A DNA stretch of 53,269 nucleotides from the NCBI GenBank assembly GCA_900315675.1, contig OMZY01000019.1, forward strand, positions 1 through 53,269. Direction: 5' to 3'. Origin of the DNA: an uncultured Eubacteriales bacterium. GTDB taxonomy: Bacteria > Bacillota > Clostridia > Christensenellales > Aristaeellaceae. Position 1 is the first letter of the stretch. The number at the start of each line of letters is the position of its first letter. This document shows, piece after piece, positions 600 to 48,771 of this stretch. The position numbers and the translations under genes were made by a program. The notes under the pieces were generated by a model. It made no database searches, was not told the origin of the DNA, and saw only the letters and a list, made by a program, of their open reading frames with translations.

Positions 600-1583
600 C
601 TATTTGCAGCACGGGCAGCTGACGTTCCGGTACAGGTACTTCATTTTGGCTGTCATATCATCCCGGGATACCGTCATCACTTTGTTGATCGGGATCTGTG
701 CGTCCGAGAGCAGGTAGTACAGGTTTCTTCCCTTGATATAATACAGAATCCGGATAATAAAGTAGGCAAACAGATGCCAGGCCGCCCGGTCCAGGAAGCC
801 GTTCTCGCCCGGATAAAACTCTTTCAGGATATCCTGGTTCTGCATGCAGCGCAGGCATGCGCTTTCGCCGCCGATGACCAGCGGGCCGATTACGTTTTCC
901 TTGTTGGTATTGTTGTAGAAAAGGACTGTCGCTTTCCGTTCAGTCACATAATCATTCAGTTCAATCAGCCGGTCTGCGCTCATCCCCGTTCCATCCGCCA
1001 GGAACAGGACATCCTGTATTCCGCTCCTGTCTTTCAGCTCTTTCTCCGGGATGATCCTGTCCTGAGGAATACCTTCCTCAAGCTGTTTTTCCCTGGACAT
1101 CCCAGCAAAGCTGCCGACATCCGCCACATCTTCCACCCTTCGGATCAGATAAACTTCAGGCACAAACTCCTTCAGGTTCTCAAATAAAAGCTTGTTCAGA
1201 GCTGTTGCGCCCCACAGGTAAATCCGTGTCTGATCAAAAGAAGGATCCACCTGGAAATTCTCGGCGAAATGCGTTGGATTGACCACAGAAAAATAGTCTG
1301 CCTCTTCCGCCGCTTTTTCGGCTTCGGCTTCTGTCAGTTCCTCAAAGAGTTCCTGGTGCTTCAGAATCAGGATTCCGAGCCAGTTCCAGTAAGGCTTTTG
1401 GGAAAGCCAGTCAATTCTGTGCGGCCGCTTCAGATCTTCCTTCACAGCATCGTTCCAGGCATCTTTTCCGGCCTTCAGTTTCAGTATGACCAGTTTTGTG
1501 CTTTTACGGTATACACACACAAACGTGTCTTCCTGGAAGAAAACATAATCCTCTTTCAGCCTGATCATCGCGTTTTCGTTCAT
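600..1583 (-). CDS. E1/ThiF-like partner protein of azole RiPP synthesis (Ocin-ThiF-like)
   Basis: Last gene of the RiPP operon, 327 aa. The middle and C-terminal part carries the E1-like hallmark GPLVIGGESACLRCMQNQ (near residues 232-249). The protein ends in a second Cys pair, SCPCCK, so two CxxC-type pairs could bind zinc, as in the E1-like C proteins of azole clusters. The first 80 residues look like a leader-binding RRE (PqqD-like) domain. Such proteins present the precursor to the YcaO enzyme that makes thiazolines and oxazolines; TbtF of thiomuracin is a comparable role. The start is supported by AGGGGG seven bases upstream. It follows the dehydrogenase gene by 14 bases. Family is fairly clear; partner role is inferred. 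Confidence 0.7.
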   Translation of the reverse strand: MNENAMIRLKEDYVFFQEDTFVCVYRKSTKLVILKLKAGKDAWNDAVKEDLKRPHRIDWLSQKPYWNWLGILILKHQELFEELTEAEAEKAAEEADYFSVVNPTHFAENFQVDPSFDQTRIYLWGATALNKLLFENLKEFVPEVYLIRRVEDVADVGSFAGMSREKQLEEGIPQDRIIPEKELKDRSGIQDVLFLADGTGMSADRLIELNDYVTERKATVLFYNNTNKENVIGPLVIGGESACLRCMQNQDILKEFYPGENGFLDRAAWHLFAYFIIRILYYIKGRNLYYLLSDAQIPINKVMTVSRDDMTAKMKYLYRNVSCPCCK

Positions 1584-1597
1584 AAGTCGTCCCCCTT

Positions 1598-2383
1598 TTA
1601 TCCTACAGCCAATACATACAGCACTCTTTTTTCCGTACCCGCTATGTTCAGGAGCTGCCGTATTCTCTCTTCAAAAAAGCCTCCCAGCGGAACAACGCAA
1701 AGGTTCAGCATTCCCGCTGCCAGCATCATATTCTGGCCGATATGTCCGCATTCATCATGCATCAGCCGGTAAGTCAGGGCATGATACTTTTTCTTCATCA
1801 CTTCCGGGCTGCCCGTCAGGCAGACCAGGAACTGTGCCTTTGAAAAAGTGAATGGCCCGATATCTGTCGCGGAGATCAGGGTGTCCACCCTGTCAGTATC
1901 CAATCTTGACTGCTTCTCCAGCTGCCGCGTACGCGGATTGTATTTCAGGCAGTAATCCTTTGCGAATATTTTGTTCTTCCCTACTGTTTTTTCAGTGGGT
2001 ATCAGATAGATTTCCACAGGATACAGGCGTCCTCCGGAGGGATAAGTCAGCAAATTCTGTTTTTTATCATTCACTCCAAAGGAGTAGGCCAGGTACTTCT
2101 CCAGTTCATCGTCCGTAAGCACTTCCCGGTGAAAATCCCAGGATGTCCGTCGCTTCATCAGCGCGTCCTTCAGCGTGAATCCGTCATCCGGAATGTCTTC
2201 CAGATATGGAATCGACCACACTGCCTCCCGTTCCTCTTCCTTCGTTTCAGGAAGCTTATAATCCATCTTCGGTGCGTTAAAGCTCTGGGTTCTCGCTGTA
2301 TGCTCGGAATTCAGGTGATAGAACTCATACAGTTTTGCTTTCTGATCCGCCTCTTCCCGGAAATTCCACAGGATCGTTTCCAT
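1598..2383 (-). CDS. SagB/McbC-type FMN dehydrogenase (azoline oxidase)
   Basis: Predicted to oxidise thiazolines or oxazolines to aromatic azoles using FMN, like McbC, SagB or TbtE. The 261-aa protein shows the nitroreductase-fold SagB signatures: RRTSWDFH in the N-terminal third, TYPSGGRLYPVEIYLIP in the middle, and GHIGQNMMLAAGMLNLCVVPLGGF near the C-terminus, followed by a closing LYVLAVG strand. A longer reading frame exists upstream, but the start at 2383 is preferred because GGGAG precedes it at suitable spacing and it begins 5 bases after the previous stop. Operon position between the LanB-C-like gene and the E1-like gene supports a tailoring role. Confidence 0.85.
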   Translation of the reverse strand: METILWNFREEADQKAKLYEFYHLNSEHTARTQSFNAPKMDYKLPETKEEEREAVWSIPYLEDIPDDGFTLKDALMKRRTSWDFHREVLTDDELEKYLAYSFGVNDKKQNLLTYPSGGRLYPVEIYLIPTEKTVGKNKIFAKDYCLKYNPRTRQLEKQSRLDTDRVDTLISATDIGPFTFSKAQFLVCLTGSPEVMKKKYHALTYRLMHDECGHIGQNMMLAAGMLNLCVVPLGGFFEERIRQLLNIAGTEKRVLYVLAVG

Positions 2384-2388
2384 CCGTT

Positions 2389-3246
2389 TCAGCTCCCTTC
2401 GCAAGTTCGCAGCACCTCTGCCAGCGACGCCTCCAGCTGCGGCACAATGCCCAGCCGGTTGTTTGTCATATGAATCTGGGAAGCAAGGATCATCTTTTCC
2501 GCCGTATCCCGATCCGGATAGACCGATTGTGTCTCGCACACCTGTCCCATTTCCTCCCGCAGTCCCATCTCCCAATCCCTGTAATAATCCCCGGCGTCTG
2601 CCATCAGGCTGTCATACCGTTTTTTGTATTTCTCTGCCAGTTCTTCCGTTGAAAACAGTTTTTTGTTTTCCCCCGCGAACCCTTTCCAATACTGGCCGTA
2701 GAGGCTCAGGAACGGCTTCCTGTCCCTGAGTCCCTTGACTGCCAGCGTAAACAGGTCCAGCCCGCCGATGATCCGTTTCATCACGCTGTTCCCTGCGCTT
2801 TTGCGTATCCCCAGTGTATATTTTGACGAAAGCGAGAATATCTTTTCACAGTGCGGAAGGCTCCGCGGCCCGCCGTAGCGTTCCGTTTCCGGCTCGTAAA
2901 CCATTCGTCTTGCGCTTTTGTCAGGTATAAAAGTAATATCCTCCACGTTTTCCTTGTTATTGCTGTAAAGCTCATAATAAGCCTTCTCCGGCAGAACGTA
3001 TTTCGGTTCATAACCTTCCAGGAAACTTTCAAACCGTGCGTTCATCCGTCTTTCCACAGTTTCCGGTTCCCGGCTCTTGTAACGGAAACGGATGTGGTTG
3101 CCGCCCTGCCAGTACACAATATAGAAATACTGATCCAGCAGGCCTTCCTTTTCCAGCTGCTCCGCCTCAGGCTTCAGGTATTCTGTCAGAAACCTGTTGT
3201 GGCAGGTGCTGTCATGGATAAAGTAATGATTTGCGTTCCACTCCAT
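2389..3246 (-). CDS. LanB C-terminal-domain / thiopeptide-type biosynthesis protein (elimination enzyme candidate)
   Basis: A 285-aa stand-alone protein resembling the SpaB/LanB C-terminal and thiopeptide-type domain. The N-terminal FYIVYWQGGNHIRFRYK matches the usual R-x-G-x-H-x-R-R pattern. VYEPETERYGGPRSLPHCEKIF matches the family's YEPExxRYGG motif, and the QIHMTNNRLGI segment matches its C-terminal H-x-x-x-NR-x-G motif. In split dehydratases such as TbtB/TbtC this unit removes glutamate from glutamylated Ser/Thr to give dehydroalanine or dehydrobutyrine; its partner would be the LanB-N protein at 9016-11529. The alternative is a pyridine synthase (TbtD-like), because a second such protein lies at 7913-8992. 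The start is preceded by AGAAGGG. Confidence 0.75.
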   Translation of the reverse strand: MEWNANHYFIHDSTCHNRFLTEYLKPEAEQLEKEGLLDQYFYIVYWQGGNHIRFRYKSREPETVERRMNARFESFLEGYEPKYVLPEKAYYELYSNNKENVEDITFIPDKSARRMVYEPETERYGGPRSLPHCEKIFSLSSKYTLGIRKSAGNSVMKRIIGGLDLFTLAVKGLRDRKPFLSLYGQYWKGFAGENKKLFSTEELAEKYKKRYDSLMADAGDYYRDWEMGLREEMGQVCETQSVYPDRDTAEKMILASQIHMTNNRLGIVPQLEASLAEVLRTCEGS

Positions 3247-3264
3247 CTTTCCGTACCCTTCTCT

Positions 3265-4551
3265 TCATAGTCTGTGCACATAGTTCCGCGTATTGGCTTT
3301 CCCCAGAATCAGGCTGTATACGAACCGTTCCCTGTCCCTTGCGCCAAACGCTTTTTCAACATATGCGTCATTCAGGTTGCGCATAGGTCTTCCGAAGTAT
3401 CCGTCCGCGCACCCGCCCAGCAGGAACCAGTGGCAGATCTCCGCAGCCCCGATATGGGCGTTGTAGATGTTTTCCTTCTCTGTCAGCTGCTCGTCATATA
3501 GATAGGAGATATATACAACGACCGGCATGCTCTCCATATCGATCATCCGCACCGTGTCATACAGAAGCTGTCCCTTGTCTATGTCTGCCGGTTCCGCCCG
3601 TCCCGCTTTTTCTCCTTCTATCCGTTGCAGTCGCTGTCCGTCCTTCGTGGTATACAGCATATGTACCCGGTACCGGTAAGCATCCTCCATGTAATGGTTC
3701 ATGTAAGCTTCCAGCTGTTTCAGATACCTTTCTGCAGTCGTCTCCGTTATGGTTTTCTCCAGGCTGCATACCCCGATGTGGTTATGGGCGGATTCCCTTC
3801 TTTCGGTTTCCGTAAAAGGGATCATCTGCGTGCCTTCACAGGCGACCTTTCTTCTGCGGAAACTCTTGTCCTGGGACAGAAGCCATCCGGCTGCCTCATA
3901 GGATGATACTTCCTCGTCATAGTTCATGACCCGCCGGTACCGTCTGTTGTCTTCCGTCCCTTCCGCGGGAAAATACCCGCTGCCCAGGTCCGCTTCCAGC
4001 GTGATCATGTGGCATTTGGGGCTCAGTCCCAGCATGTCGTATTCCGACTTCCCCGCCGCTCCGTATCGGATCTCCGTTTCGGTTCTTCCTGCTGCTTCCA
4101 GTTCTGTTTTCAGTTCCGCCAGAATGTGTCCCGCGTCCAGCAGCGGAAGCATCAGTCCGAACTCTCCATAGTATTTCATCAGCCGCCACAGTTCCGCCGC
4201 TATCACAAGCCGGCATTTCCCGCGCTCCGTTTCACTGAAGCCGACCCGTTCAAACACGTTGCCCTTACAGTTATACCGGCTGATTCTTCCGTCCCAGATC
4301 AGGAACGCCTCATTGGCGTGCACATTTCTGGCTGCCGGAACCCGTTTGTGAAACCCATAGGGATTCGTCGGCTCATACCGGGAGTATCCGAAGATTTTCC
4401 GGATCAGCCCACATACGTCTGCCAGTTGTGCCGGCAGTCTTTCCTCGGCGCTTTCCTCCAGGTCCGTGATCATGTAATCAATGAACTTTACTGATGAATA
4501 CCGGTTCGGATTGTCGTACCGTTCCCGGGTCAGTCTGTCAAACAGCTCCAT
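3265..4551 (-). CDS. Divergent nitroreductase-fold protein, second oxidoreductase of the cluster
   Basis: 428 aa with no clear catalytic signature, but the layout suggests a distant SagB-like nitroreductase fold. An NPYGFHKRVPAARNVHANEAFLIW stretch stands where SGG-LYP sequences occur in relatives. There are helices around DAGHILAELKTELEAAG and HIGAAEICHWFLLGG, and a closing GRPMRNLNDAYVEKAF followed by a FVYSLILG strand. It could oxidise a different ring or be a scaffold. An ATG at 4566 touches the YcaO stop but has no ribosome site; AAGGAA lies seven bases before the ATG at 4551, which is chosen. Family assignment is tentative; membership of the operon is clear. Confidence 0.5.
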   Translation of the reverse strand: MELFDRLTRERYDNPNRYSSVKFIDYMITDLEESAEERLPAQLADVCGLIRKIFGYSRYEPTNPYGFHKRVPAARNVHANEAFLIWDGRISRYNCKGNVFERVGFSETERGKCRLVIAAELWRLMKYYGEFGLMLPLLDAGHILAELKTELEAAGRTETEIRYGAAGKSEYDMLGLSPKCHMITLEADLGSGYFPAEGTEDNRRYRRVMNYDEEVSSYEAAGWLLSQDKSFRRRKVACEGTQMIPFTETERRESAHNHIGVCSLEKTITETTAERYLKQLEAYMNHYMEDAYRYRVHMLYTTKDGQRLQRIEGEKAGRAEPADIDKGQLLYDTVRMIDMESMPVVVYISYLYDEQLTEKENIYNAHIGAAEICHWFLLGGCADGYFGRPMRNLNDAYVEKAFGARDRERFVYSLILGKANTRNYVHRL

Positions 4552-4566
4552 TGTCATTTCCTTCAT

Positions 4567-6303
4567 TTATGGAAAAGGATGCGGTGTCACATTGATCTCC
4601 TCTTCCGGAATTTCCCGGTCTGTAATGCCTGCTTCCACAGCGCCTTTCCTGATCCGTTCCAGGTTCAGCCGCTGGTTTTTCACTCCGAAGGTCATTGTCA
4701 GCATGGAGGGTACTATTGCCTTTACACACCACAGTCCCAGTTCCCGGTTTACTTTGCTTTCCAGCACCCCCACATAGATATCCGGGTGATATTTCCGGAA
4801 GCGTTCCGTGAACTGTTCCAGCGTAAATGTACGGTCTTCCCGTTCGTACCAATCCTTGAACCGTTCCGTGAATTCCACCTTCTGCTCGTTCAGGTAATAA
4901 GGCTCGATATTGTGGAAATTCTCTTCCAGTGAGTAGAAATAAACATGATCTTCAATCCCGATCACAGCTTCCGGATGTCCCTTAAGTTTTGCCAGTTGTT
5001 CGTCCAGCTCTCCGCTCCTGATCATCCGGTCATAGATACCGATGCTCGTGGCCACTTCCACCAGGGCGCCTTCCAGTGCCTTTTCCGGATTGATATGGGC
5101 CCCTGCGGCATTGTAGCATTTCATCTTTCCGTGGTAGTTCCTGTCAATCGCCGCCACCCAGATGGCCGGGATCCCGGTTTCCATGGTGATATCCATTACC
5201 CGGATCTCATAACCGATGCAGGTCATATACCGCACCACGTCCCGCAGATAATCGTTCTTCACTCCGGAAATATCCAGCTGCTTCGGTGCAATCCGGTTAT
5301 ACCAGTGCATCAGGAACGCGTCCCGTTCCACCAGTTCCAGCATTGCGTACATCACAGCTTCTTCAAAAGTTCCGCCCATGGCACAGCCGTTGGAAGTCTC
5401 ATACATGAAGCGTTTTTCCCCGCTCACCAGCTGTGCGTCGTAATACATCACCTGTTCCGGCAGGTAATACTCCAGGCCGTCCGCCAGGTTTGTCACCAGG
5501 CGCCAGCGATAGCTCTTGTCATCCGAGTAGGTATCGAAACCATACTGTTTCTTCACCTCATCGTTCACCAGGTTCATACTCAGCTTTTCCGGTGAAACCA
5601 TCCGGTATCCCGCCTTCACCAGTTCGCTGAAGCTTCCTGCCAGTTCCGGCTTTGTATGCGGCACGATCGAAGCGTACCGCTCCAGCATTTCAAACTCCGC
5701 GGACATGCGTGAAACTTCCAGTGTCTCTGACCGGCCATATGAATAGTATTTGTTCGTGATCATATGGCTTTTCACATAGTACATGGGAATAATCCGGCTG
5801 TCTGAATCCCGGATGATCTTCCCGCCGATCCCGCTGTGGGGGCTGATCAGCATTTCGTTATGCTCATCGCTGAAGATATCGTTTCCTTTTTTCGCCCGTT
5901 TTTCCGTATCCAGCCGGTAATTCCAGTCAATCTTTGGAATGTCCGGGGCAGCCTTCCCTTCGGCGCACTGCACAAGCGGATGGCAGTGCACCGGCAGATA
6001 CTCTACTGTGTAGTCCTTCCGGGAAATCAGGGCTACTTTCTGTTCCAGCTCTTCCCTGTCCAGGTTCTCCAGGCACTCCATTTCAAAATCATTCAGTCCT
6101 TCCCGGTCTTCCGTTCCATTTTCCAGGATCCCGGCCAGATAGCTTTTGTTATCTTCCAGGCTCCGGCGGAAGCACTGGAAGCAGTCTTTCCCGGGCCGGG
6201 CTGCAGGCCCGGCGAAAATATAGGAAGCTGTCACTCTCACAGGTATATCCTGGGCAATCTCCCTTTCCATTGTCTCCACGGTCAAAGCTGCTTCCCGTGC
6301 CAT
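4567..6303 (-). CDS. YcaO cyclodehydratase (azoline-forming)
   Basis: The ATP-dependent enzyme expected to cyclise Cys, and perhaps Ser/Thr, of the precursor to azolines. The 578-aa protein begins with an E1-like remnant (FAGPAARPGKDCFQCFRRS, a CxxC). It then has a YcaO domain with ETSNGCAMGGTFEEAVMYAM and ELVERDAFLMHWYN, which hold the Glu/Arg ATP-Mg binding motif. It ends in TPHPFP. That PxPxP C-terminus is established as important for azole-forming YcaO proteins and argues for an active enzyme. The start has GGGAGGA upstream. It sits between the degenerate YcaO-like gene and the second oxidoreductase. It corresponds in role to TbtG or to the D protein of TOMM clusters. Confidence 0.9.
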   Translation of the reverse strand: MAREAALTVETMEREIAQDIPVRVTASYIFAGPAARPGKDCFQCFRRSLEDNKSYLAGILENGTEDREGLNDFEMECLENLDREELEQKVALISRKDYTVEYLPVHCHPLVQCAEGKAAPDIPKIDWNYRLDTEKRAKKGNDIFSDEHNEMLISPHSGIGGKIIRDSDSRIIPMYYVKSHMITNKYYSYGRSETLEVSRMSAEFEMLERYASIVPHTKPELAGSFSELVKAGYRMVSPEKLSMNLVNDEVKKQYGFDTYSDDKSYRWRLVTNLADGLEYYLPEQVMYYDAQLVSGEKRFMYETSNGCAMGGTFEEAVMYAMLELVERDAFLMHWYNRIAPKQLDISGVKNDYLRDVVRYMTCIGYEIRVMDITMETGIPAIWVAAIDRNYHGKMKCYNAAGAHINPEKALEGALVEVATSIGIYDRMIRSGELDEQLAKLKGHPEAVIGIEDHVYFYSLEENFHNIEPYYLNEQKVEFTERFKDWYEREDRTFTLEQFTERFRKYHPDIYVGVLESKVNRELGLWCVKAIVPSMLTMTFGVKNQRLNLERIRKGAVEAGITDREIPEEEINVTPHPFP

Positions 6304-6331
6304 TTTTCATTCCTCCCTGCGCCTTTTTGAT

Positions 6332-7909: not shown

Positions 7910-7912
7910 AAC

Positions 7913-8992: not shown

Positions 8993-9015
8993 GACCGTTT
9001 CTCCTCCTGTCTCTG

Positions 9016-11529
9016 TCACCGGTACAGCGTTTGTTCCGCCTGGTATTCGCAGATATATTCATCGTCCCGGTTATCCGGATAAATTTCCTCCAGCACGAAC
9101 TGCTTCTGGTTCTCCATTTCCCGCAGCAGCTCCTGGAAAAGCAGCGGACTGTCCAGGTCGATATACTGGGGTTTCAGCGCTGTCCGGCCCATATTGTAAA
9201 AGTCAAAGTCATCACCGTTGATATAAGGACGGATGAAGAACCGCTTCGGCAGCCCGGCTTTCTCAAAGTCTGCCAGGATCTCCAGGTACAGCTCGTCCGC
9301 CGACTTGCTCAGGTCATAGATGCTGTTCAGCAGATACTGTTCCCGGATGAAGACCAGCTTCCCGTACTGTGTCCGCGGAATGTGATCCGCAATCAGTCCT
9401 TCATTCCGGTTTTTCTCCCACAGGTTCAGGTATGACGGATCAAATCGGGTTGAAGGCTGCATGCCGTTGACCGTTCGCAGCGGAATAGGCATCAGGTTGA
9501 TCGCCAGGCTTCCGAGAAACACACCGTTCACTTCGCCCAGATCATTATGTCCCAGCTTTACCAGTTTCTTTTCCGGATCGTAGTAGAAATAGCACTCGCT
9601 GATCGGAATGTCTCCCGATGTGGCGTCGTTCTGGTCCGTCAGGTTCAGTACCAGCCGCCTGTCAAAGATCCGCCGGTGCACATTGGCATTGAATCCGAAG
9701 CTCTCCGTGATTTCCGCCGGGTTCGGCCCAAAGGCATAGCGGCAGTAATCGCGGATTCTCCTGTTATCCTCATCAAACAGTTTCAGGAACCGTACAAAGA
9801 ACAGCAGCTGTCCTTTGTACACTTTATTGATTACCAGTTCCCCTTCCTTTTCCGCCTTCTGCAGATAGAAAGTGGCGCTGTCGATATCCTCATCAAATAT
9901 ATCCGGATGATTCGCCACCTCAGCGTCGATGAATGCTCTCAGATCCTGCGGTTCTTTTTGTCCCTTTCGTTTCAGGATCTCGGCATACATTTTTCTCTTC
10001 ATCGCCGAAATGGTCCTGATTTTTTCTCCCGCGTCGAAGCTGATGGTGCTGAAATTGTCCACCCAGACTCCTGTCAGTTTCGTTGAAGCCTCCACAAACA
10101 ACTTGTAAACTTCCAGGTCATCTGCCGGCACCTTCTCTGTTCCGTACTTTTCCAGGAACATTTCGCTGAACAGCACATAGCCCAGCACGCCCTGGTCAAA
10201 GATCCGGAAATACCTCTGCAGCTTATCCAGTTCGCTGTTTTTCAGTTCCCCGGCAGTCAGGGCTTTCTTCGGCCTGTCATACACACTGTCTTCATACAGC
10301 TGGATGTTGTGGACAAATTTCCGGCCCAGCACTTCTTCAATTTCGGCTATCAGCCGATCCATTTGATCCACTGCGGCAAAGCGTCCTCGCCAGTCGGCGT
10401 CCCGGAACTCCTTCACCAACTTTTCGTATTCTCTTATCCGGTCACGAACCTTTTCCAGGGTCCCTGCCCCGTCGTCCGTCAGGGCTGCTGTTTTTTCCTC
10501 AAACTCGCGGAAAATGTTCTCCTTCGTGTCATCAATGCTCAGGTGAGGGGTCAGCACATGGTTCCGGATCAGTTTCTCATGGATAAACTCCTGTGCTTTC
10601 GTTTCCTCCATCCCGTGTTCAACCAGCAGGCTGAGTAATTCACTGTAATGGAACACACGGTTTCCGAACTGCTCACAGATCAGCTCTATAATGCCTTTCC
10701 GCACCAGCCGTACGGTGCCGTCCACCGTCTTGTAAACCTTACCCTTTTCATAGTCACGCTGATACAGGAATATATAGCAGTCTCCATAGTCCTGGTGAGC
10801 GTTCAGCCGGTACTCCGCCTGGCTGGCAAAGTGCGGTATCTCCAGGATAAAGTCATAGACGGCCTTGATAATATAGTTGTTCGCTTCACAAATAGAACGC
10901 AGTCCTTCTCCCTGTTCCTGTTCGGCGGATTCCGGATCATAAAGGCACACAGAGGTCAGAAAACTGAAAGGGCTCGTCTTCATCGTTGCCCTGGTAAACA
11001 GCCGGATCAGCTGATGATCCAGTTTCCGGATGTCCGCATTGTGCTGCTTTACCGGGACTTCAAGGTACTTGTTCAGCTTATAGATAAAATCCTTGTTAAT
11101 GAGCGGCAGCGACCGGAGCACAAGCTGATCTTCCTTAAAGAAGGTACGCAGTGCTTCCCTGTTCCTGTCCAGGCATTGGACATACAGCATCCGGTAACGG
11201 CCTTCTGCCTGCAGGGTTTCCTCTACCTGGCTGTTGTAACGGGTGATCAGGTCTTCATATTCACTTCCCGTGAATTTTTCCCTGTTCGTCACAATTTTTC
11301 CGGCCATCATCTTCCGTTTTGCCTTCAGGATATCCGGATTCTGGCAAAGGCTGTACGCGTGTTCCAGCGTCTTCACGCCTTCCTCTGCCGCGGCCTTCAG
11401 TCGCACCGCAGCTTCCCTGTAATACTCTGCGGTTTCCGGCAGCTCCGGACACTCAACAGCTTTCAGTGCTGTCCTGGGCACATTTGTGCTCCGTTCCAGG
11501 CAGTAGGGGAACAGTTTTACGCCGTCCAT
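9016..11529 (-). CDS. Lantibiotic-type dehydratase, N-terminal (glutamylation) domain protein
   Basis: 837 aa, the size of a stand-alone LanB N-domain. The landmark RLFTRATMKTSPFSFLTSVCLYD (near residues 170-192) is the Lant_dehydr_N R-x-x-x-K-x-x-P-F motif. The C-terminal block LPKRFFIRPYINGDD...KPQYIDLDSPLLFQEL matches the family's closing motif. Such enzymes use glutamyl-tRNA to glutamylate Ser/Thr; elimination is then done by a separate SpaB_C-type protein, here probably 2389-3246. No C-terminal elimination domain is fused, so the system is split as in thiopeptides and goadsporin. It follows the ABC permease by 21 bases with a GAGAGGA ribosome site. Confidence 0.88.
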   Translation of the reverse strand: MDGVKLFPYCLERSTNVPRTALKAVECPELPETAEYYREAAVRLKAAAEEGVKTLEHAYSLCQNPDILKAKRKMMAGKIVTNREKFTGSEYEDLITRYNSQVEETLQAEGRYRMLYVQCLDRNREALRTFFKEDQLVLRSLPLINKDFIYKLNKYLEVPVKQHNADIRKLDHQLIRLFTRATMKTSPFSFLTSVCLYDPESAEQEQGEGLRSICEANNYIIKAVYDFILEIPHFASQAEYRLNAHQDYGDCYIFLYQRDYEKGKVYKTVDGTVRLVRKGIIELICEQFGNRVFHYSELLSLLVEHGMEETKAQEFIHEKLIRNHVLTPHLSIDDTKENIFREFEEKTAALTDDGAGTLEKVRDRIREYEKLVKEFRDADWRGRFAAVDQMDRLIAEIEEVLGRKFVHNIQLYEDSVYDRPKKALTAGELKNSELDKLQRYFRIFDQGVLGYVLFSEMFLEKYGTEKVPADDLEVYKLFVEASTKLTGVWVDNFSTISFDAGEKIRTISAMKRKMYAEILKRKGQKEPQDLRAFIDAEVANHPDIFDEDIDSATFYLQKAEKEGELVINKVYKGQLLFFVRFLKLFDEDNRRIRDYCRYAFGPNPAEITESFGFNANVHRRIFDRRLVLNLTDQNDATSGDIPISECYFYYDPEKKLVKLGHNDLGEVNGVFLGSLAINLMPIPLRTVNGMQPSTRFDPSYLNLWEKNRNEGLIADHIPRTQYGKLVFIREQYLLNSIYDLSKSADELYLEILADFEKAGLPKRFFIRPYINGDDFDFYNMGRTALKPQYIDLDSPLLFQELLREMENQKQFVLEEIYPDNRDDEYICEYQAEQTLYR

Positions 11530-11550
11530 TTTCTCGTCCTCTCTTCAAAA

Positions 11551-12297
11551 TCACTTATCTGTAGCGAAACCCTTCTGGAACTGGATCAGGATCAGGCAAA
11601 CCGCCACCCAGATTGCCAGGGCAATCAGGTTAATGATTTGCTGCGGCGTCCCGTACCATACGCGAACCAGGATCTGGTTCATGTGATATACCGGATTGAT
11701 GTAGATCAGCCAGCGCAGGACCACGGGCATCTTTTCCACCGGCATAATCAGTCCGCTGGCAAACAGCACATACTGGAAGCCGATAATCGTAAAGGGCATC
11801 ACCTGCCGGCTGTTCTTGAAGAAGCCGTGCAGTGTCAGGCTCAGCAGCATCATGATGATAACCGTTACCAGGAAGGCAAAGAAGAAGAGAATCATATGGC
11901 TGCTCAAGGGAATCCTGAACACAAGCGTCGCAATCGCAATCATTTCAAAGAAACCCAGGATAGAAATCAGCAGTCCCCTCAGGGAATAGGTCAACACTAC
12001 GTTAAACAGGCTGATCGGGCTCAGCAGGAGGCGCTTGAATATGCCGCTCTGCTTATCTGTAACGTATTGTGTGCCAATGTTGAAGAAAACTGTCAGGAAT
12101 GAGATCAGGATCATATACATCGGCAGGAATTGGGCAAAGCCCTCGATACTGGCTGCGTCCTTCGCCATTGACCCGGCATAGATCACAAAGAACACGCCCG
12201 GCAGCAGCAGGATCGGCAGTGCAAAGAAGGGTTCACGGAAAAAGATCACCAGGTCATACCAGAATTGTTTCCAGATACTTCTTACGGAGAATCTCAC
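11551..12297 (-). CDS. ABC-2 type transporter permease
   Basis: 248 aa with about six hydrophobic segments (residues 20-45, 60-80, 105-130, 135-160, 170-195 and 220-242), typical of ABC-2 exporters such as DrrB-like permeases. The sequence GFQYVLFASGLIMPVEKMPVVLRWLIYINPVYH is the usual ABC-2 C-terminal signature, with P-x-x-x-P and NP-x-x-H. It overlaps the ATPase gene by 4 bases (ATGA), so the two are translationally coupled. Position inside the RiPP operon suggests it exports the mature peptide, confers self-resistance, or both. Confidence 0.88.
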   Translation of the reverse strand: MRFSVRSIWKQFWYDLVIFFREPFFALPILLLPGVFFVIYAGSMAKDAASIEGFAQFLPMYMILISFLTVFFNIGTQYVTDKQSGIFKRLLLSPISLFNVVLTYSLRGLLISILGFFEMIAIATLVFRIPLSSHMILFFFAFLVTVIIMMLLSLTLHGFFKNSRQVMPFTIIGFQYVLFASGLIMPVEKMPVVLRWLIYINPVYHMNQILVRVWYGTPQQIINLIALAIWVAVCLILIQFQKGFATDK

Positions 12298-13022
12298 AGT
12301 TTTTCTCCTCCTTCCACCAATCTGAAATATGCGTCCGAGAAGAACTCAACGCCCAGCGCCTTTTTAATGTTTGCGGGCGAATCGTTCGCGGCGATCTTCC
12401 CCTTGTTCAGCACGATCACCCGATCGCAGAACTTGTCCACTTCTTCCATGGAGTGGGTTGAGAGCAGGATCGTCTTGTCCTTCTGGACTCCGCCCCGGAT
12501 CTTTTCCCAAACCAGCTGCGTCGCCTTGGGGTCCAGTCCGGTTGTAGGCTCATCCAGGAAAATCAGGTCCGGATCATGCAGGAATGCTATAGCCAGCAGG
12601 AACCGCTGTTTCCAGCCGCCTGAAAGTTTTTCAAACTTGGTGTTCAGATAAGGCTGCAGTTCAAAGTATTCCACCAGCCGGCTGATTTTTTCTTTCCCGA
12701 CGGAATAGAAGGAAGCAAACAGATCCAGCGCTTCTTTCAGTTTGATAAAGCTGTACATTCCGCCTTCCTGAAGCATGACGCCGATCTTTGCCCGGATCGC
12801 GTCCACAGATTTCTGTTCACCGGTGCTCTTCCCCAGGATCGTCACTGTACCGTTGTTCACTTTGCGGATCGTCATCAGGATCTCCAGCAATGTGGTTTTC
12901 CCTGTTCCGTTTGGTCCGACAACAGCCACTGTTTCACCAGCCGGTATTGCAAAGCTGATGTCATCCAATACGGTTTTCTCACCGTACTTTTTCGTGATGT
13001 TCCGAACATCAATAATACTCAT
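12294..13022 (-). CDS. ABC transporter ATP-binding protein
   Basis: 242 aa with a full set of ABC motifs: Walker A GPNGTGKTT (36-44), a Q-loop in GVMLQEGGMYSF, signature LSGGWKQR, Walker B LIFLDEP, D-loop GLDP, and H-loop LLSTHSMEE. The order and the 'drug exporter' style match DrrA/CcmA-type ATPases that work with ABC-2 permeases, here the coupled gene at 11551-12297. It starts 49 bases after the second agrD stop. Likely role: export of, or immunity to, the cluster product. Confidence 0.92.
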   Translation of the reverse strand: MSIIDVRNITKKYGEKTVLDDISFAIPAGETVAVVGPNGTGKTTLLEILMTIRKVNNGTVTILGKSTGEQKSVDAIRAKIGVMLQEGGMYSFIKLKEALDLFASFYSVGKEKISRLVEYFELQPYLNTKFEKLSGGWKQRFLLAIAFLHDPDLIFLDEPTTGLDPKATQLVWEKIRGGVQKDKTILLSTHSMEEVDKFCDRVIVLNKGKIAANDSPANIKKALGVEFFSDAYFRLVEGGEKL

Positions 13023-13071
13023 ACGCTCTCTCAGCCTTTCCGTTTGTTATTGGTCTCCCTCCGGGACCTGA

Positions 13072-13209
13072 TTACTTATTCTTCTTCAGCTTGTTCATGG
13101 CTTTGGGCTGCTTTGGCTGATATCCAAAGAAGATACAGCAACTGTTCGCCTGTGCCTCTGCCATTTTGACTGCTGCCTTCACGATGATCTGCTTTCCGAT
13201 GTTCTTCAT
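13072..13209 (-). CDS. agrD: AgrD-like cyclic autoinducer precursor, copy 2
   Basis: Encodes a 45-residue peptide reading MKNIGKQIIVKAAVKMAEAQ, then ANSCCIFFGYQPKQPKAM, then a Lys-rich tail ending KKNK. The amphipathic basic N-terminal helix, central Cys, and conserved Q-P-x-x-P recognition segment are the three parts of an AgrD precursor. By analogy with Clostridium perfringens AgrD (CLWFT followed by HQPEEP), AgrB should cut after Gly29 and form a thiolactone ring C25-I-F-F-G29, with Cys24 outside the ring. A ribosome site (AAAGGAGAAA) precedes the ATG. It differs from copy 1 only by Asn instead of Ser at residue 44. Confidence 0.85.
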   Translation of the reverse strand: MKNIGKQIIVKAAVKMAEAQANSCCIFFGYQPKQPKAMNKLKKNK

Positions 13210-13282
13210 TTTCTTTTTCTCCTTTCAATCTGTTCAGTTCGTCAGTCTTTCCGTTTGTTATTGGCCTCTTTTCTGGATCTGA

Positions 13283-13420
13283 TTACTTACTCTTCTTCAG
13301 CTTGTTCATAGCTTTGGGCTGCTTCGGCTGATAACCAAAGAAGATACAGCAACTGTTCGCCTGTGCCTCTGCCATTTTGACCGCTGCTTTCACGATGATC
13401 TGTTTTCCGATGTTCTTCAT
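13283..13420 (-). CDS. agrD: AgrD-like cyclic autoinducer precursor, copy 1
   Basis: A 45-residue peptide identical to copy 2 except Ser44 (tail KKSK). The signal region NSCCIFFGYQPKQP is unchanged, so both genes should produce the same autoinducer. This copy is first in the direction of transcription, after the three RiPP precursors. It is preceded by AAAGGAGAAA. AgrB, the sensor kinase and the response regulator lie 1-3 kb upstream on the same strand, with the RiPP precursor block inserted between agrC and agrD. Confidence 0.85.
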   Translation of the reverse strand: MKNIGKQIIVKAAVKMAEAQANSCCIFFGYQPKQPKAMNKLKKSK

Positions 13421-13524
13421 TTTCTTTTTCTCCTTTCAATCTGTTCAGTTCGTTTTTTATTTATGTTCCCGCCGCAGCGGTTTGAATTTCTTTCCTGGTT
13501 CTTCGGGAGGTCCCGCAAGGGGGC

Positions 13525-13538
13525 GATCGGCTGTTCAA
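13525..13538. promoter_or_regulatory. 14-bp inverted-repeat partner, downstream copy
   Basis: GATCGGCTGTTCAA here is the exact reverse complement of 14198-14211. This copy lies in the 165-base gap upstream of agrD; the other lies 39 bases upstream of the first precursor gene. A shared regulator site is possible. No binding protein is assigned. Confidence 0.35.
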
Positions 13539-13585
13539 ACAATTTTTCTCGTCCCCTCAGCAGGGTTGTTCTTCTGCTTTTCGGC

Positions 13586-13756
13586 TTAGTTCGCGGAGCC
13601 GCCGTTGATGCCGCAGCTGATGCAGCTGGTGCTTCCGCAGCAGGAACAGCTGGAGCTGGAGCTGGAGCCGCTCGTTGCGGCGGTCTCGCCCAGCAGAGAA
13701 GCTTCGGATACTTCCATAACCTCGATGTCTTCCATGTTCTTGATAGCTTCCTTCAT
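13586..13756 (-). CDS. RiPP precursor peptide 3 (Ser/Cys-rich core)
   Basis: 56 residues, too short for many gene finders. The leader MKEAIKNMEDIEVMEVSEAS continues with LLGETAATSG. The core then has six Ser in a row and the block SCSCCGSTSCISCG, ending INGGSAN. The leader is acidic and shared with the other two precursors; the core has the Ser, Cys and Gly content expected for azoles and dehydroamino acids. The leader/core boundary is probably after TSG, but this is inferred. An AGGAGAG-type ribosome site precedes the ATG. Confidence 0.85.
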   Translation of the reverse strand: MKEAIKNMEDIEVMEVSEASLLGETAATSGSSSSSSCSCCGSTSCISCGINGGSAN

Positions 13757-13776
13757 TTTTCTCTCCTCCTGTCTGC

Positions 13777-13968
13777 TTATTTGGATGCCTGAACGGTTGC
13801 GTTCGCGCTGCTGTCATTCATACCGCAGCTGATGCAGCTGGTTGATCCGCAGCAGGAGCAGCTGCCGCAGGCGCTGGATCCGCTTGTCGCGGCGGTCTCG
13901 CCCAGCAGAGAAGCTTCGGATACTTCCATAACCTCGATGTCTTCCATCGTCTTGAAAGCGTCTTTCAT
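13777..13968 (-). CDS. RiPP precursor peptide 2 (variant core, C-terminal extension)
   Basis: 63 residues. The leader is nearly the same as in its neighbours (starts MKDAFKTMED rather than MKEAIKNMED). The core begins SSACG instead of SSSSS, then has the shared SCSCCGSTSCISCG block, then MNDSS and a longer tail ANATVQASK. Its core therefore carries an extra Cys near the start and a possible C-terminal follower. The pattern S-x-x-G-S-C-S-C recalls the lactazole core in general form, which is only suggestive. It is 20 bases after precursor 1, with GGAGG as ribosome site. Confidence 0.88.
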   Translation of the reverse strand: MKDAFKTMEDIEVMEVSEASLLGETAATSGSSACGSCSCCGSTSCISCGMNDSSANATVQASK

Positions 13969-13988
13969 TTCCTTAACCTCCGTTTACG

Positions 13989-14159
13989 TCAGTTCACGCT
14001 GGAACCGTTGATGCCGCAGCTGATGCAGCTGGTAGAACCGCAGCAGGAGCAGCTGGAGCTGGAGCTGGAGCCGCTCGTCGCGGCAGTCTCGCCCAGCAGG
14101 GATGCCTCGGAAACTTCCATAACCTCGATGTCTTCCATGTTCTTGATAGCCTCTTTCAT
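13989..14159 (-). CDS. RiPP precursor peptide 1 (Ser/Cys-rich core)
   Basis: 56 residues and first gene of the biosynthetic operon. The leader is identical to precursor 3 and the core differs only at the C-terminus (INGSSVN instead of INGGSAN). It contains six consecutive Ser, then SCSCCGSTSCISCG. The ribosome site GGGAGGA lies upstream of the ATG. Its position directly behind the agrC terminator suggests its own promoter in 14160-14237, but no clear -10/-35 pair stands out. Confidence 0.85.
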   Translation of the reverse strand: MKEAIKNMEDIEVMEVSEASLLGETAATSGSSSSSSCSCCGSTSCISCGINGSSVN

Positions 14160-14197
14160 TTGTTTGTCCTCCCTTTCGTTTTTGTTTGATTTCGGTC

Positions 14198-14211
14198 TTG
14201 AACAGCCGATC
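14198..14211. promoter_or_regulatory. 14-bp inverted-repeat partner, upstream of precursor 1
   Basis: TTGAACAGCCGATC is the exact reverse complement of 13525-13538. The pair flanks the three precursor genes. It may be a shared binding site in the putative precursor promoter region. Confidence 0.35.
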
Positions 14212-14227
14212 TGGTGTCATTGTAACG

Positions 14228-14262
14228 ATAAAAAAAAGATTGTGGCGATCATTGCCACAATC
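14228..14262 (-). terminator. Rho-independent terminator of the agrBAC operon
   Basis: A 9-bp perfect stem (GATTGTGGC at 14238-14246 with GCCACAATC at 14254-14262), followed on the minus strand by eight or more T. It lies 16 bases past the kinase stop and separates the agr sensing operon from the precursor genes. Confidence 0.85.
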
Positions 14263-14278
14263 CAACGTTTTATTGCCA

Positions 14279-15541
14279 TCATCCAAGATAAAGCAGTATT
14301 TTTGTCCTGAAAATCTGTTCCTCCGCGTTCATTTCCAGTGTCCCGTGATACTTCTCCACGACCCGTTTCACGTTTTCCAGGCCGATACCGTGATTGTTCT
14401 CATCCGCTTTCTGCGTCAGGAGCCTGCTTCCCCGCCATTTCAGCTTGCCCTCAAACGGGTTTTCAGTCCGGATAAACAGCTGGTTCTTCACCAGTTTGAT
14501 AGACAGATGTATTCTCTTCTTCTCATTTTCCAGTTTTCTGCATGCTTCGATTGCATTGTCCAGCAGGTTCCCCAGGATAACCGTAATATCAAAATCGTCC
14601 ATACTCAGCTGTTCCGGAATACTGGTTTCCACCTCAATCGGTATTTCTTTCGCGCTGCTGATCTTGTAATGCAGCATGCTGTCCACGGCCGGCTGTCCGG
14701 TATAGACCTGCGGAACCGACGCCTGCGTCTCTTCCTGCATTCGGTGCAGGTATTCATCCAGTTCCTGATAGCGTTTTTGCTCTGAATACGAGCGCAGGAT
14801 CAGGATATGATTCTTGATGTCATGATAGATTCCACGGATTTTCTTCCGGCTGTCCAGCAGGATCTCCATTTCCCGCTCATAACTTTCCTTCTGTTCAGCC
14901 AGCAGAAGGTTTTTCACCCGTTCCTCTTCAGATACAATCAGCCGGTCATAGATGTAGATCACCACATAGTCAATCACCGCCAACATCAGTATGGCGCCAA
15001 CCAACACGTCTCCATGAAAATTGAAGACAAACATGGTAATCAAGCCAATCACCATAATCTGCATGAGGGTGACACCTGCCCAGCAGATCCAGTCACCTTC
15101 TGTGCTTCTGGCTACTCCTTTAAACCGCTTCAGAACCTGGACAATCAGTGACAGTATCACGCACTGAATAACCATTCCCATCTGCGAGAAGCTGTCCTGC
15201 TGGCGTTCCCAAAGTCCGCTCGGCACAAAGCCGCTGACCCATACAGCTGCCAGTTCCGCCAGTATCATGGCCACATACGTCACCAGCACCATCATAATAT
15301 TGCGTTTCAGTGTCTTCTCATATAACCGGTTCAGCAGAATCATGCCCGCTATATTCAAAAACATATTCAGCATCGGAATACCAAACAAAAGAAACACTGC
15401 GGATGTCACGGCATAGAATGCAAGATAGGCTGCTACTTCCCTCTGGAATGGAACTCTTTCCGCGGCATTGTGGCGAAAAACTCTGGCAATACATAAGGTG
15501 TTTAGCGCACCGGTAATCAGATATATCAATGTATTGCTCAT
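14279..15541 (-). CDS. agrC: AgrC-type sensor histidine kinase (GHKL)
   Basis: 420 aa. The first ~200 residues form about six membrane segments, the autoinducer-sensing part of AgrC kinases. A coiled linker leads to GIYHDIKNHILIL with the phospho-acceptor His, and a C-terminal GHKL ATPase domain with LGNLLDNAIEAC (N-box) and NNHGIGLENVKRVVEKYHG (G-box). It overlaps the response regulator stop by 4 bases (ATGA). It should detect the thiolactone made from the agrD genes and phosphorylate the regulator at 15538-16251. Confidence 0.88.
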   Translation of the reverse strand: MSNTLIYLITGALNTLCIARVFRHNAAERVPFQREVAAYLAFYAVTSAVFLLFGIPMLNMFLNIAGMILLNRLYEKTLKRNIMMVLVTYVAMILAELAAVWVSGFVPSGLWERQQDSFSQMGMVIQCVILSLIVQVLKRFKGVARSTEGDWICWAGVTLMQIMVIGLITMFVFNFHGDVLVGAILMLAVIDYVVIYIYDRLIVSEEERVKNLLLAEQKESYEREMEILLDSRKKIRGIYHDIKNHILILRSYSEQKRYQELDEYLHRMQEETQASVPQVYTGQPAVDSMLHYKISSAKEIPIEVETSIPEQLSMDDFDITVILGNLLDNAIEACRKLENEKKRIHLSIKLVKNQLFIRTENPFEGKLKWRGSRLLTQKADENNHGIGLENVKRVVEKYHGTLEMNAEEQIFRTKILLYLG

Positions 15542-16251
15542 TGTTCCATCCCCATCTCGCTGCTCAGTTTGCGCACTTCTTTCCGCTTGGCCTGGCTGAT
15601 TTCCAGTTCTTCGCCGTTATCCAGTACCAGCTTGTCATAATGAAATTCCGCCACCCGGTCATAGTTCACCAGGATGCTCTTATGGCAGTAGAAGAATCGC
15701 TTGTCCTTTAATTCTTCATAGATATCCTTCAGCGAGGCGTAGAACTCATCCGTCTTCTGACGGGTCACAACAATTGTCTTTTTCAGCTGGCTCTCAAAAT
15801 AAAGAATGTCTTCCATTTTGCAGCGTGCTGTCTGCCCTTTCTTATGGTAGACAAACATTTCCCCGCTCCGGTTCAGCGTATTCATCAGCTTATTCATGAC
15901 TTCCTCAAGCTCTTCATACTTCACCGGTTTGATCAGGAAATCAAAGGTGTCCACCTTGAACAGATCCATAGCGTACCCGCGCTGGCTGGAAACATAAACG
16001 ATCTTCAGTCCGTAGTTCTGCAGCTGTTCCCGTACCCGCGTGCCAACTTCCACACCATTGATGTTGGGCATTTCAATATCCAGGAACAGCACATCCCACT
16101 GTTCTTCCTTCAGCTTCTGAAGCGCTTTCTCTCCATGATTCACCACATGGATATCAAATTCATCCCGATGATTGATTTCATACTGCTCCAGTTTTTTCTC
16201 CAGGTCCTCACTGAACAGTTCATCATCATCACAGATCAGGATTTTCATCAT
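15538..16251 (-). CDS. agrA: AgrA-like response regulator (receiver + LytTR)
   Basis: 237 aa. The receiver domain opens MMKILICDDDELF, with the phospho-acceptor Asp in VLFLDIEMPNINGVEV. The C-terminal LytTR DNA-binding domain runs from KKGQTARCKMEDILYFES to FYCHKSILVNYDRV. The reading frame is open upstream, but the start at 16251 is chosen because GGAGGAGG precedes it by about 10 bases. It overlaps the end of agrB by 23 bases. LytTR regulators bind paired direct repeats; I did not find a convincing pair in the short gaps of this locus, so its targets are inferred. Confidence 0.88.
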   Translation of the reverse strand: MMKILICDDDELFSEDLEKKLEQYEINHRDEFDIHVVNHGEKALQKLKEEQWDVLFLDIEMPNINGVEVGTRVREQLQNYGLKIVYVSSQRGYAMDLFKVDTFDFLIKPVKYEELEEVMNKLMNTLNRSGEMFVYHKKGQTARCKMEDILYFESQLKKTIVVTRQKTDEFYASLKDIYEELKDKRFFYCHKSILVNYDRVAEFHYDKLVLDNGEELEISQAKRKEVRKLSSEMGMEQ

Positions 16252-16804
16252 GGTCCAGCCGCCTCCTCCGTTTTTTGTTTGCCAGGCCCACCGCAAGATT
16301 CACCGCCATAAGGAACAGGCAAACGCTCACGCAGCGCGTTCCCGGCTCCCACCCCAGCAAAGATGAAATCAGATAGATACCGAATTCAGCCAGCACGATC
16401 CGCCGTGCTATCCGGCCATACACCTGTTCTTCCTTTTTGTCCAGTTCTTTGTTGGCCGTATCCACCGGCGCAAAGCGCATGATGAACAATCCGCCCGCCA
16501 GGGTCAGTCCGTGCGTCAACATTGACGGCAGCGTTATATATTTAATGCAAAGAAAGCAGATCAGGATAAATATGGCTGATATCACCCCGCATCGGGCGGG
16601 CGTCGTTGCATGATATCCTCCGGCAAAAATGCGCAGTATGTACGCAAGTAATAGGAAAAGCACAGCCTGTCCCGGAATGCCCAGCAGCCAACCGACAGCC
16701 ACCGCCAGAATCAGTCCGCCGATTAGTATCAGTCCCTGTTTCAGACCATACTCCGCTATTTCTTTGTCTTCTTCTGATAAATCAGCAAAAAGCCCGGTTT
16801 TCAC
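16229..16804 (-). CDS. agrB: AgrB-like autoinducer-processing membrane protease
   Basis: 191 aa with four to six membrane helices. The catalytic motif is AGGYHATTPARC, giving His65 and Cys72 at the 7-residue spacing seen in Staphylococcus aureus AgrB. FAPVDTANKELDKKEE is the second family landmark. It should cut AgrD at its C-terminal side and form the thiolactone. The start is GTG with GGAGGGG just upstream. It is the first gene of the agrBAC operon, behind the promoter at 16883-16910. Confidence 0.92.
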   Translation of the reverse strand: MKTGLFADLSEEDKEIAEYGLKQGLILIGGLILAVAVGWLLGIPGQAVLFLLLAYILRIFAGGYHATTPARCGVISAIFILICFLCIKYITLPSMLTHGLTLAGGLFIMRFAPVDTANKELDKKEEQVYGRIARRIVLAEFGIYLISSLLGWEPGTRCVSVCLFLMAVNLAVGLANKKRRRRLDHDENPDL

Positions 16805-16882: not shown

Positions 16883-16910
16883 ATTCTATGGCCGTTTTCC
16901 TTTGTGTCAA
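16883..16910 (-). promoter_or_regulatory. Promoter of the agrBAC operon
   Basis: On the minus strand, TTGACA (16905-16910), a 16-base spacer, and TAGAAT (16883-16888), followed by an AT-rich stretch. The match to sigma-A consensus is strong. It lies about 80 bases before agrB and is divergent from the permease promoter. Confidence 0.7.
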
Positions 16911-24866: not shown

Positions 24867-24912
24867 CTGTCTGTAACTCCCTTCCGCTCGTTCCGTCATG
24901 CCCGCGGGTTTC

Positions 24913-48754: not shown

Positions 48755-48771
48755 TCGCCTTCGATCTTCAC
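48738..48771 (-). repeat. Exact 17-bp tandem duplication causing a frameshift
   Basis: GTGAAGATCGAAGGCGA (minus strand) occurs twice in a row at 48755-48771 and 48738-48754. Removing one copy restores a continuous reading frame ...NTLETVKIEGEKKWD. With both copies a TGA stop is read directly after KIEGE. Confidence 0.95.

Follow-up and report, generated by a model that had tools for sequence, protein, structure and literature searches.

Gene content of the locus

The window analysed here is a 53,269-nucleotide stretch of DNA from an uncultured Eubacteriales bacterium of the family Aristaeellaceae (GenBank assembly GCA_900315675.1, contig OMZY01000019.1), and it makes up the entire contig C22 of a draft genome of 3.6 Mb in 57 contigs (G000). 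Positions 600 to 16804 hold a thiopeptide biosynthetic cluster together with the genes of an agr-type quorum-sensing system. Read along the (-) strand from 16804 to 600, the order is agrB, a LytTR regulator gene, a GHKL kinase gene, three precursor genes and two agrD genes, followed by the genes for an ABC ATPase, a permease, a LanB-N protein, a TbtD/PbtD homologue, a 525-aa protein and YcaO, and lastly those for a 433-aa protein, a LanB-C protein, a SagB dehydrogenase and an E1-like protein, which ends at 600. The same cluster is carried by two relatives (G033 and G009). Gene content, order and conservation, as well as the promoter- and terminator-like sequences described below, were read directly from these genomes.

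A preliminary description, made from the letters of this stretch, had reported the agr genes and a thiopeptide-type modification set as interleaved on one strand, with agrD inside the biosynthetic run. All of the named genes were found at about the coordinates it gave, all on the (-) strand, and family matches and gene order agree with that arrangement. Because the agr genes and the enzymes are interleaved and agrD lies inside the biosynthetic run, a density-dependent switch of an antibiotic is plausible from the sequence, and the thiopeptide cluster is probably run by its own agr-type switch, with the signal gene within the output operon. The distinctive and unusual feature is the wiring, in which the receptor and processing genes are predicted to lie on one unit and the signal gene in the antibiotic operon.

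The agr genes and the predicted signal

The signal-processing membrane protease is encoded by agrB (16229..16804, (-) strand, GTG start, 191 aa; PF04647, 2.5e-32). Its orthologues share 71% and 76% identity, and its motif GGYHATTPARC includes one His and one Cys, which we take to be the catalytic pair expected of AgrB. An AgrA-like response regulator with a LytTR domain (15538..16251, (-) strand, 237 aa from an ATG at 16251; Response_reg 1e-18, LytTR 1.4e-19) is 95% identical to its G033 counterpart. It is followed by an AgrC-like GHKL sensor kinase of 420 aa with an HDIKNH box (14279..15541, (-) strand; HATPase_c_5/GHKL 3.4e-28), to which the kinases of G033 and G009 are 72% and 93% identical, respectively.

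Two copies of agrD were identified further along the (-) strand, at 13283..13420 (45 aa; TIGR04223, 1.1e-10, 41.4 bits against a cut-off of 19) and at 13072..13209, the second also above the TIGR04223 cut-off and encoding an identical predicted signal. The doubling corresponds to a tandem duplication of 211 nt, 93% identical, at 13031-13452; a single agrD was found in the G033 cluster and likewise in that of G009. The predicted signal of both window copies is taken from NSC-CIFFG(Y) and has a ring of 5 or 6 residues. The AgrD cores, translated by eye for G033 and G009, are CIFFG in both window copies, CILFG in G033 and CAWFC in G009, with YQPK next in each. By analogy with other agr systems, processing before YQPK would presumably give a five-residue ring. 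Six-residue rings are mentioned in PMC10301443.

The full agr set of the preliminary description (AgrB, AgrA-like, AgrC-like and two AgrD) was recovered, each member above a family cut-off. AgrB is present together with its AgrD substrate (PF04647, TIGR04223), as are a GHKL kinase and a LytTR regulator. The genes do not form an agrBDCA set in a single operon with one auto-induced promoter: agrD lies 2.8 kb past agrB, beyond a terminator-like site. The locus would function in the manner of agr, yet it is no agrBDCA operon.

Precursors, modification enzymes and exporter

Three precursors lie between the kinase gene and agrD on the (-) strand, as the preliminary description had it for its ribosomally synthesised and post-translationally modified peptide (RiPP) precursors: precursor 1 at 13989..14159 (56 aa; PF19409 7.4e-9, NF033400 6e-12), precursor 2 at 13777..13968 (63 aa; PF19409 9.3e-9) and precursor 3 at 13586..13756 (56 aa; PF19409 4.9e-9). 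All three exceed the cut-off of the thiopeptide model PF19409 (Thiopep_pre), and precursor 1, the sole one run against NF033400, exceeds the cut-off of that model as well. The precursor match to TIGR03892 (24.8 bits against a cut-off of 25) fell narrowly under. Ser pairs at macrocycle spacings were compared with those of 26- and 35-membered rings, which are general knowledge. Pairs that fit both the 26-membered ring (S[CT]CGSTSC[IV]SC) and the 35-membered ring occur in 8/8 precursors of the genus, whose Ser-rich cores hold further pairs; a product ring of either size would fit. Neither a leader protease nor a target-copy resistance gene was recognised among the family matches for 600-16804.

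Directly behind agrD, still on the (-) strand, an ABC exporter ATPase (12294..13022, 242 aa; PF00005, 4.8e-28) and an ABC-2 type permease (11551..12297, 248 aa; PF01061, 1.5e-18) are encoded. The next gene specifies a TbtB-like dehydratase of LanB N-terminal type, corresponding to the glutamylation part (9016..11529, (-) strand, 837 aa; PF04738, 5.5e-10). Its sequence-nearest solved structure is 6ec7, a lantibiotic dehydratase domain protein (1.4e-5), which we take to be TbtB. A homologue of the TbtD/PbtD-like pyridine synthases (7913..9019, (-) strand, 368 aa) matches NF045556 over nearly its full length (2e-16). It is followed by a 525-aa protein with no family match (6332..7909, (-) strand; 84% identity in G033, 78% in G009), which by its position is perhaps, at a guess, a leader-binding or E1-like partner of YcaO. 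The YcaO cyclodehydratase (4567..6303, (-) strand) has a PHPFP end and matches PF02624 (1.3e-64) and TIGR03604 (234.8 bits against a cut-off of 219).

Behind YcaO lies a 433-aa protein with no confident family match (3265..4566, (-) strand). Weak homologues were found in two other clostridial genomes, G470 (5e-6) and G1125 (2e-9), where they sit between YcaO and LanB-C, and the protein may be an undescribed thiopeptide enzyme. The remaining (-) strand genes encode a TbtC-like elimination protein of LanB C-terminal type (2389..3246; PF14028 1.1e-34, TIGR03891 84.6 bits against a cut-off of 48), a SagB-type azoline dehydrogenase (1598..2365, 255 aa; nitroreductase 8.4e-20, TIGR03605 83.4 bits against a cut-off of 78) and a weakly matched E1-like or leader-binding protein (600..1583, 327 aa; TIGR03882, E 0.0086, under the cut-off).

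A precursor model, YcaO with an azoline dehydrogenase, and a split LanB (PF04738 and TIGR03891, each above its cut-off) are all present, so by enzyme content this is a thiopeptide cluster, with the pyridine synthase read from its sequence as a divergent homologue. Assignment as a linear azole-containing peptide (LAP) or lanthipeptide cluster was considered and rejected: LanB-N and LanB-C are both present, and no LanC-type family is among the matches of the 600-16804 genes. The enzyme calls of the preliminary description were largely sustained. YcaO, LanB-N and LanB-C all matched families in HMM searches; the predicted PxPxP end of YcaO is PHPFP; and a SagB-like oxidase and an ABC exporter are present. 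Two LanB-C-like proteins had been proposed, of which that at 2389-3246 is a thiopeptide-type LanB-C and that at 7913-9019 is instead the TbtD/PbtD-type homologue. The E1-like call survives as the weak TIGR03882 match of 600-1583, and no family match was obtained for 6332-7909.

Promoter-like, terminator-like and candidate regulator sites

Upstream of agrB, a promoter-like TTGACA-16-TAGAAT (16883..16910, (-) strand) matches the consensus at 11/12 positions, and both hexamers are kept in G033 and G009. An intrinsic-terminator-like site was found right behind the kinase gene (14237..14263, (-) strand), with 10 pairs and an 8-T run; stem and T run are kept in all three genomes. It is overlapped at its stem by a direct repeat of TGGCAAT with a 21-bp period (14251..14278, (-) strand), kept in 3/3 genomes, which is a putative site for the LytTR regulator. 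A period of 21 bp is the spacing of AgrA-type LytTR sites, and in each of the three genomes the exact repeat occurs at the cluster only. Use of the repeat as a regulon signature was abandoned: with at most one mismatch it gave 8/3/6 matches (G000/G033/G009) against 0/1/1 for the reversed control, and no regulon is claimed. A further promoter-like site precedes precursor 1 (14219..14248, (-) strand; 9/12 matches, kept in 3/3 genomes), with a good -10 (TACAAT) and a poor -35 (TCGCCA), the latter suggesting an activator-dependent promoter.

Because of the conserved terminator-like hairpin behind the kinase gene, agrB, the regulator gene and the kinase gene are probably separate from the precursor transcript. 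The preliminary description had predicted a transcript from agrC through the precursors, which does not accord with the terminator-like site lying between them, and one transcript from agrB through the enzymes is likewise no longer the likeliest reading. No terminator-like site was found by the scan on the (-) strand from 14236 to 12361, an interval that reaches from precursor 1 to inside the exporter gene, and one shared transcript for the precursors and agrD is plausible.

Inverted repeat flanking the precursor section

The precursor section is flanked by two 14-nt arms that are exact reverse complements and are kept in all three genomes. The 5' arm (GATCGGCTGTTCAA, 14198..14211, (-) strand) lies at or near the predicted transcript start, and the 3' arm (TTGAACAGCCGATC, 13525..13538, (-) strand), after precursor 3, lies within the loop of a hairpin predicted to have the stem GAGGGGACGA...UCGCCCCC, the letters of which are unchanged in 3/3 genomes. 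Apart from the two arms, none of the three genomes has an exact copy of the 14-mer; with one mismatch, matches elsewhere numbered 2 in G000, 4 in G033 and 1 in G009, against 0 for the reversed control. On its own the 14-nt duplex was calculated at -25.9 kcal/mol. ViennaRNA put the probability of long-range pairing of the arms, versus the local hairpin, at about 0.1 for the window and 0.3 for G033 (the G009 cluster being split, folding covered the window and G033). Since the local hairpin competes, pairing of the arms as a stable fold was only partly supported and is not adopted. No Rfam family was matched between the kinase gene and the exporter (12900-14400 at an E-value of at most 1, and the whole window by gathering score). 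The inverted repeat may serve for RNA pairing, as two operator sites in opposite orientation or as a small-RNA target.

Conservation in relatives

The LanB-N protein was used as a query against the genome_contigs collection, where it matched one locus, and against 308 genomes of the family, of which three carried the gene: the window's own, G033 (85%) and G009 (78%). In G033 the entire layout is colinear on a single contig, which has three precursors and a single agrD. The G009 cluster is divided between two contigs: C20 ends inside the precursor section after agrB, the regulator gene and the kinase gene, and C18 starts inside the precursor section and carries on through a precursor and a single agrD to the enzymes. 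We infer that the two contigs join within the precursor section. Ratios of dN/dS, computed with our own script (NG86) with the second agrD left out, were 0.02-0.26 for 17 of 18 genes against G033 and for 13 against G009, and are rough since dS is close to 1 or exceeds it in many comparisons.

The upstream neighbours (a dehydrogenase, a 194-aa protein, a HAD phosphatase and a transporter) are alike in all three genomes, which points to one shared site and to vertical inheritance of the cluster since. As to a cluster-free site, the neighbouring transporter is present in G023 and G004, and none of the remaining three neighbours turned up in the stretches retrieved.

Elsewhere in the window, 40053-48305 and 48751-52854 encode proteins of 2750 and 1367 aa with many Cna_B and SpaA domains, probably surface proteins, and 22020-24899 encodes a 959-aa protein that carries DUF4214 repeats and, at its C terminus, a caspase-like domain.

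Thiopeptide clusters elsewhere

Searches with PF19409 were extended to 393 genomes of the class, of which 9 matched and 3 were above the cut-off (the window's own, G470 and G313). The G313 match, above the cut-off only with its neighbours and in a frame with stops, was discarded, tblastn with cluster proteins having given no match there. The six remaining class matches, below the cut-off and in open frames of 388-403 aa, were left out. Among 398 genomes of the phylum 2 matched, the window's own and G897, the latter below the cut-off; it was dropped as a cluster carrier because tblastn with cluster proteins matched the ABC ATPase only. Three of the 206 genomes of the G470 family matched.

In total, agr genes lie beside five of six clostridial thiopeptide clusters (window, G033, G009 if its contigs join, G470 and G1175). 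In G470, AgrB, AgrD, a kinase and a regulator are encoded downstream of the cluster, behind an open reading frame (ORF) taken by eye for a transposase, and the same block lies downstream of the cluster in G1175; kinase and regulator were assigned in both by similarity, without family models.

Plasmid records were searched with YcaO (110 matched), AgrB (3 matched) and TbtD (no match). Ten of the 110 YcaO records were examined, and 8 of them have YcaO with LanB-type or thiopeptide-type genes. On plasmids of Latilactobacillus curvatus and Latilactobacillus sakei, annotated agrB, GHKL and LytTR genes are divergent from the cluster. On the L. curvatus plasmid, inspection by eye also gave an AgrD-like ORF. 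No agr gene is annotated in the Sutcliffiella plasmid stretch, where, as in the other plasmid records without one, the gene tables are incomplete. The two plasmids of Streptococcus salivarius (L045 and L052) have a GHKL kinase and a response regulator and no annotated AgrB, and the one that was searched by tblastn with two AgrB proteins gave no match. As a separate observation, the stretches of these two plasmids show 9 and 7 annotated near-identical tandem precursor genes, and two YcaO genes.

The preliminary description had not recognised the combination of thiopeptide chemistry with agr as described. To call it undescribed would go too far, as agr lies beside thiopeptide clusters in G470, G1175, L. 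curvatus and L. sakei, and PMC11352710 names both. Co-occurrence of agr with thiopeptide genes extends to two Clostridia of another family of the class and two Latilactobacillus plasmids and does not extend to G1125.

For UBA3401 (Lachnospiraceae), PMC11352710 describes a thiopeptide cluster alongside cyclic lactone autoinducers and puts forward a quorum model. Thiopeptides and cyclic lactone autoinducers of rumen isolates are counted as separate classes in PMC13289728, and control by agr of a LanM-like gene adjoining the agr operon is described in PMC10301443. No link between agr and a thiopeptide cluster appears in the portions available of PMC10134562, PMC12231095, PMC12724294, PMC11118758, PMC13151043 and PMC10673953. 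An agrD inside a thiopeptide operon was not reported among the literature matches listed, subscription papers being mostly outside their scope.

Proposed mechanism and alternatives

The transcripts, binding site, chemistry, product and activity proposed below are derived from sequence. Unit 1 (agrB, regulator and kinase) would have basal expression from the canonical promoter and would end at the terminator behind the kinase gene. Unit 2 would begin at the promoter ahead of precursor 1 and comprise the three precursors, agrD, the exporter and the enzymes. AgrB would cut and cyclise AgrD to a thiolactone peptide with 5 or 6 ring residues; the extracellular peptide would activate the kinase, the LytTR regulator would be phosphorylated, and the unit 2 promoter would be activated. 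Signal and antibiotic would rise jointly, with positive feedback via agrD only. YcaO with its partner and SagB would form azoles, the TbtB- and TbtC-like proteins would make dehydroalanines, the TbtD homologue would close the pyridine macrocycle and the ABC pair would export the product.

A more specific version is put forward tentatively. Receptor, regulator and processor may be held at a steady level, agrD may follow the precursors within one operon, which would tie the dose of signal to that of antibiotic, and the 14-nt 5' arm at the mRNA start may pair with the loop of the post-precursor hairpin and thereby set how stable the precursor section is, or its ratio, relative to agrD and the enzymes.

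Several observations weigh against a thiopeptide cluster under its own agr-type control. Promoter-like sites were no more numerous in the scan than chance predicts (14 versus 15.7), and terminator-like sites scarcely exceeded their chance number (24 versus 17.9, sd 4.5). The weight of these calls rests on position and conservation, and only conservation sets the sites apart. The direct repeat overlaps the terminator stem, and the terminator may account for its conservation. Signal and receptor have diverged out of step: the 93% identical kinase of G009 goes with CAWFC and the 72% identical kinase of G033 with CILFG, a pattern that argues against simple co-evolution or points to recombination. 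The thiopeptide cluster of G1125 is without agr: its contig of 26 kb has none, and a search of the draft genome gave no AgrB. Among the plasmid clusters, no agr gene is annotated in those of Staphylococcus aureus, Macrococcoides and Lactobacillus paragasseri; of these three and Sutcliffiella, L. paragasseri and Macrococcoides were the ones searched by tblastn for agr. Finally, the NF045556 match of the pyridine-synthase homologue reached 60 bits, far under the equivalog cut-off of 325.

This last point bears on an alternative for the product, namely a linear or otherwise cyclised azole/dehydroalanine peptide, with the TbtD homologue doing another reaction. The sequence-nearest solved structure of the homologue, PbtD (5w98, 0.0016), was matched over the last ~140 residues only, and the 433-aa protein is unexplained by family matches. 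Against this stand the thiopeptide-model matches of all three precursors, including that of precursor 1 to NF033400, and a TbtD-type protein that is kept in G033, G009 and G470. The Ser pairs at macrocycle spacing, kept in all eight precursors of the genus, point the same way, chance pairs being likely in Ser-rich cores. A product of this kind is judged unlikely.

It is also improbable that the agr genes are the general quorum-sensing system of the cell, merely beside the cluster, with agrD and the precursors separately promoted and targets elsewhere. Such an arrangement would find room for a hidden promoter in the 165-nt gap before agrD, where hairpins are predicted, and has a parallel in the other Clostridia and a Latilactobacillus, where the four agr genes (agrB, agrD, kinase and regulator) stand in a block of their own next to the cluster. 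However, one or more additional agr loci, arranged regulator-kinase-AgrB-AgrD, are present in each of G000, G033 and G009. AgrB was above the cut-off in 7 of 45 genomes of the genus, and a tree of 14 AgrB was built from 11 of the 12 genus matches (the sub-cut-off G035 being left out) and 3 from other thiopeptide clusters. The AgrB of the window, G033 and G009 formed their own branch (100/100), with the other eight of the genus outside. AgrB of this cluster type was seen only in the three genomes of the genus with the cluster, and agrD lies between precursors and exporter in all three. The cluster agr is probably distinct from the housekeeping agr.

That the modified peptide serves only signalling or self-control, and kills no competitor, is very unlikely. 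In favour of it, no dedicated resistance gene was recognised in 600-16804 (two plasmid clusters have an extra ribosomal protein L11 gene annotated); against it, the operon includes an exporter, and precursors and enzymes of these types belong to antibiotics elsewhere.

To our knowledge, thiopeptide control in gut Clostridia has been little studied, and many such clusters are silent in culture. If agr runs the cluster described here, the antibiotic should be inducible by adding the small signal peptide in synthetic form. Apart from the AgrB of the window, those of G470, G1175 and L. curvatus group in a single clade (100/99), although the tree program warns of long branches meeting at that point. 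That agr recurs next to thiopeptide genes, with its AgrB on two branches of a small tree, hints that density control of this antibiotic class was assembled more than once.

Comparison with known systems

Like the window, UBA3401 combines a thiopeptide with an autoinducer, an assignment based on antiSMASH (PMC11352710). The system of PMC10301443 resembles the present one in that a RiPP-enzyme-like gene is under agr; that gene is LanM-like, and according to the abstract other lanthipeptide machinery is absent.

With the thiomuracin/GE2270 enzyme set the window shares a split LanB, a TbtD/PbtD homologue, YcaO, SagB and a Ser/Cys-rich precursor. The roles of TbtB, TbtC, TbtD, TbtE and TbtG are those of the thiomuracin/GE2270-type pyridine thiopeptide enzymes. 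It differs in its three precursors, the 433-aa protein, two weakly matched or unmatched leader-binding candidates and the agr genes inside the cluster.

The genes for AgrB, AgrD, kinase and regulator are grouped as a single block in G470, G1175 and L. curvatus, as are those for AgrB, kinase and regulator in L. sakei, whereas in the window they are split. The agr block lies downstream of the cluster in G470 and G1175 and is divergent in Latilactobacillus. With agr of the agrBDCA type the window has AgrB, AgrD, a GHKL kinase and a LytTR regulator in common. It departs from that type in its order, agrB-regulator-kinase, terminator, precursors and then agrD, so that agrD does not adjoin agrB.

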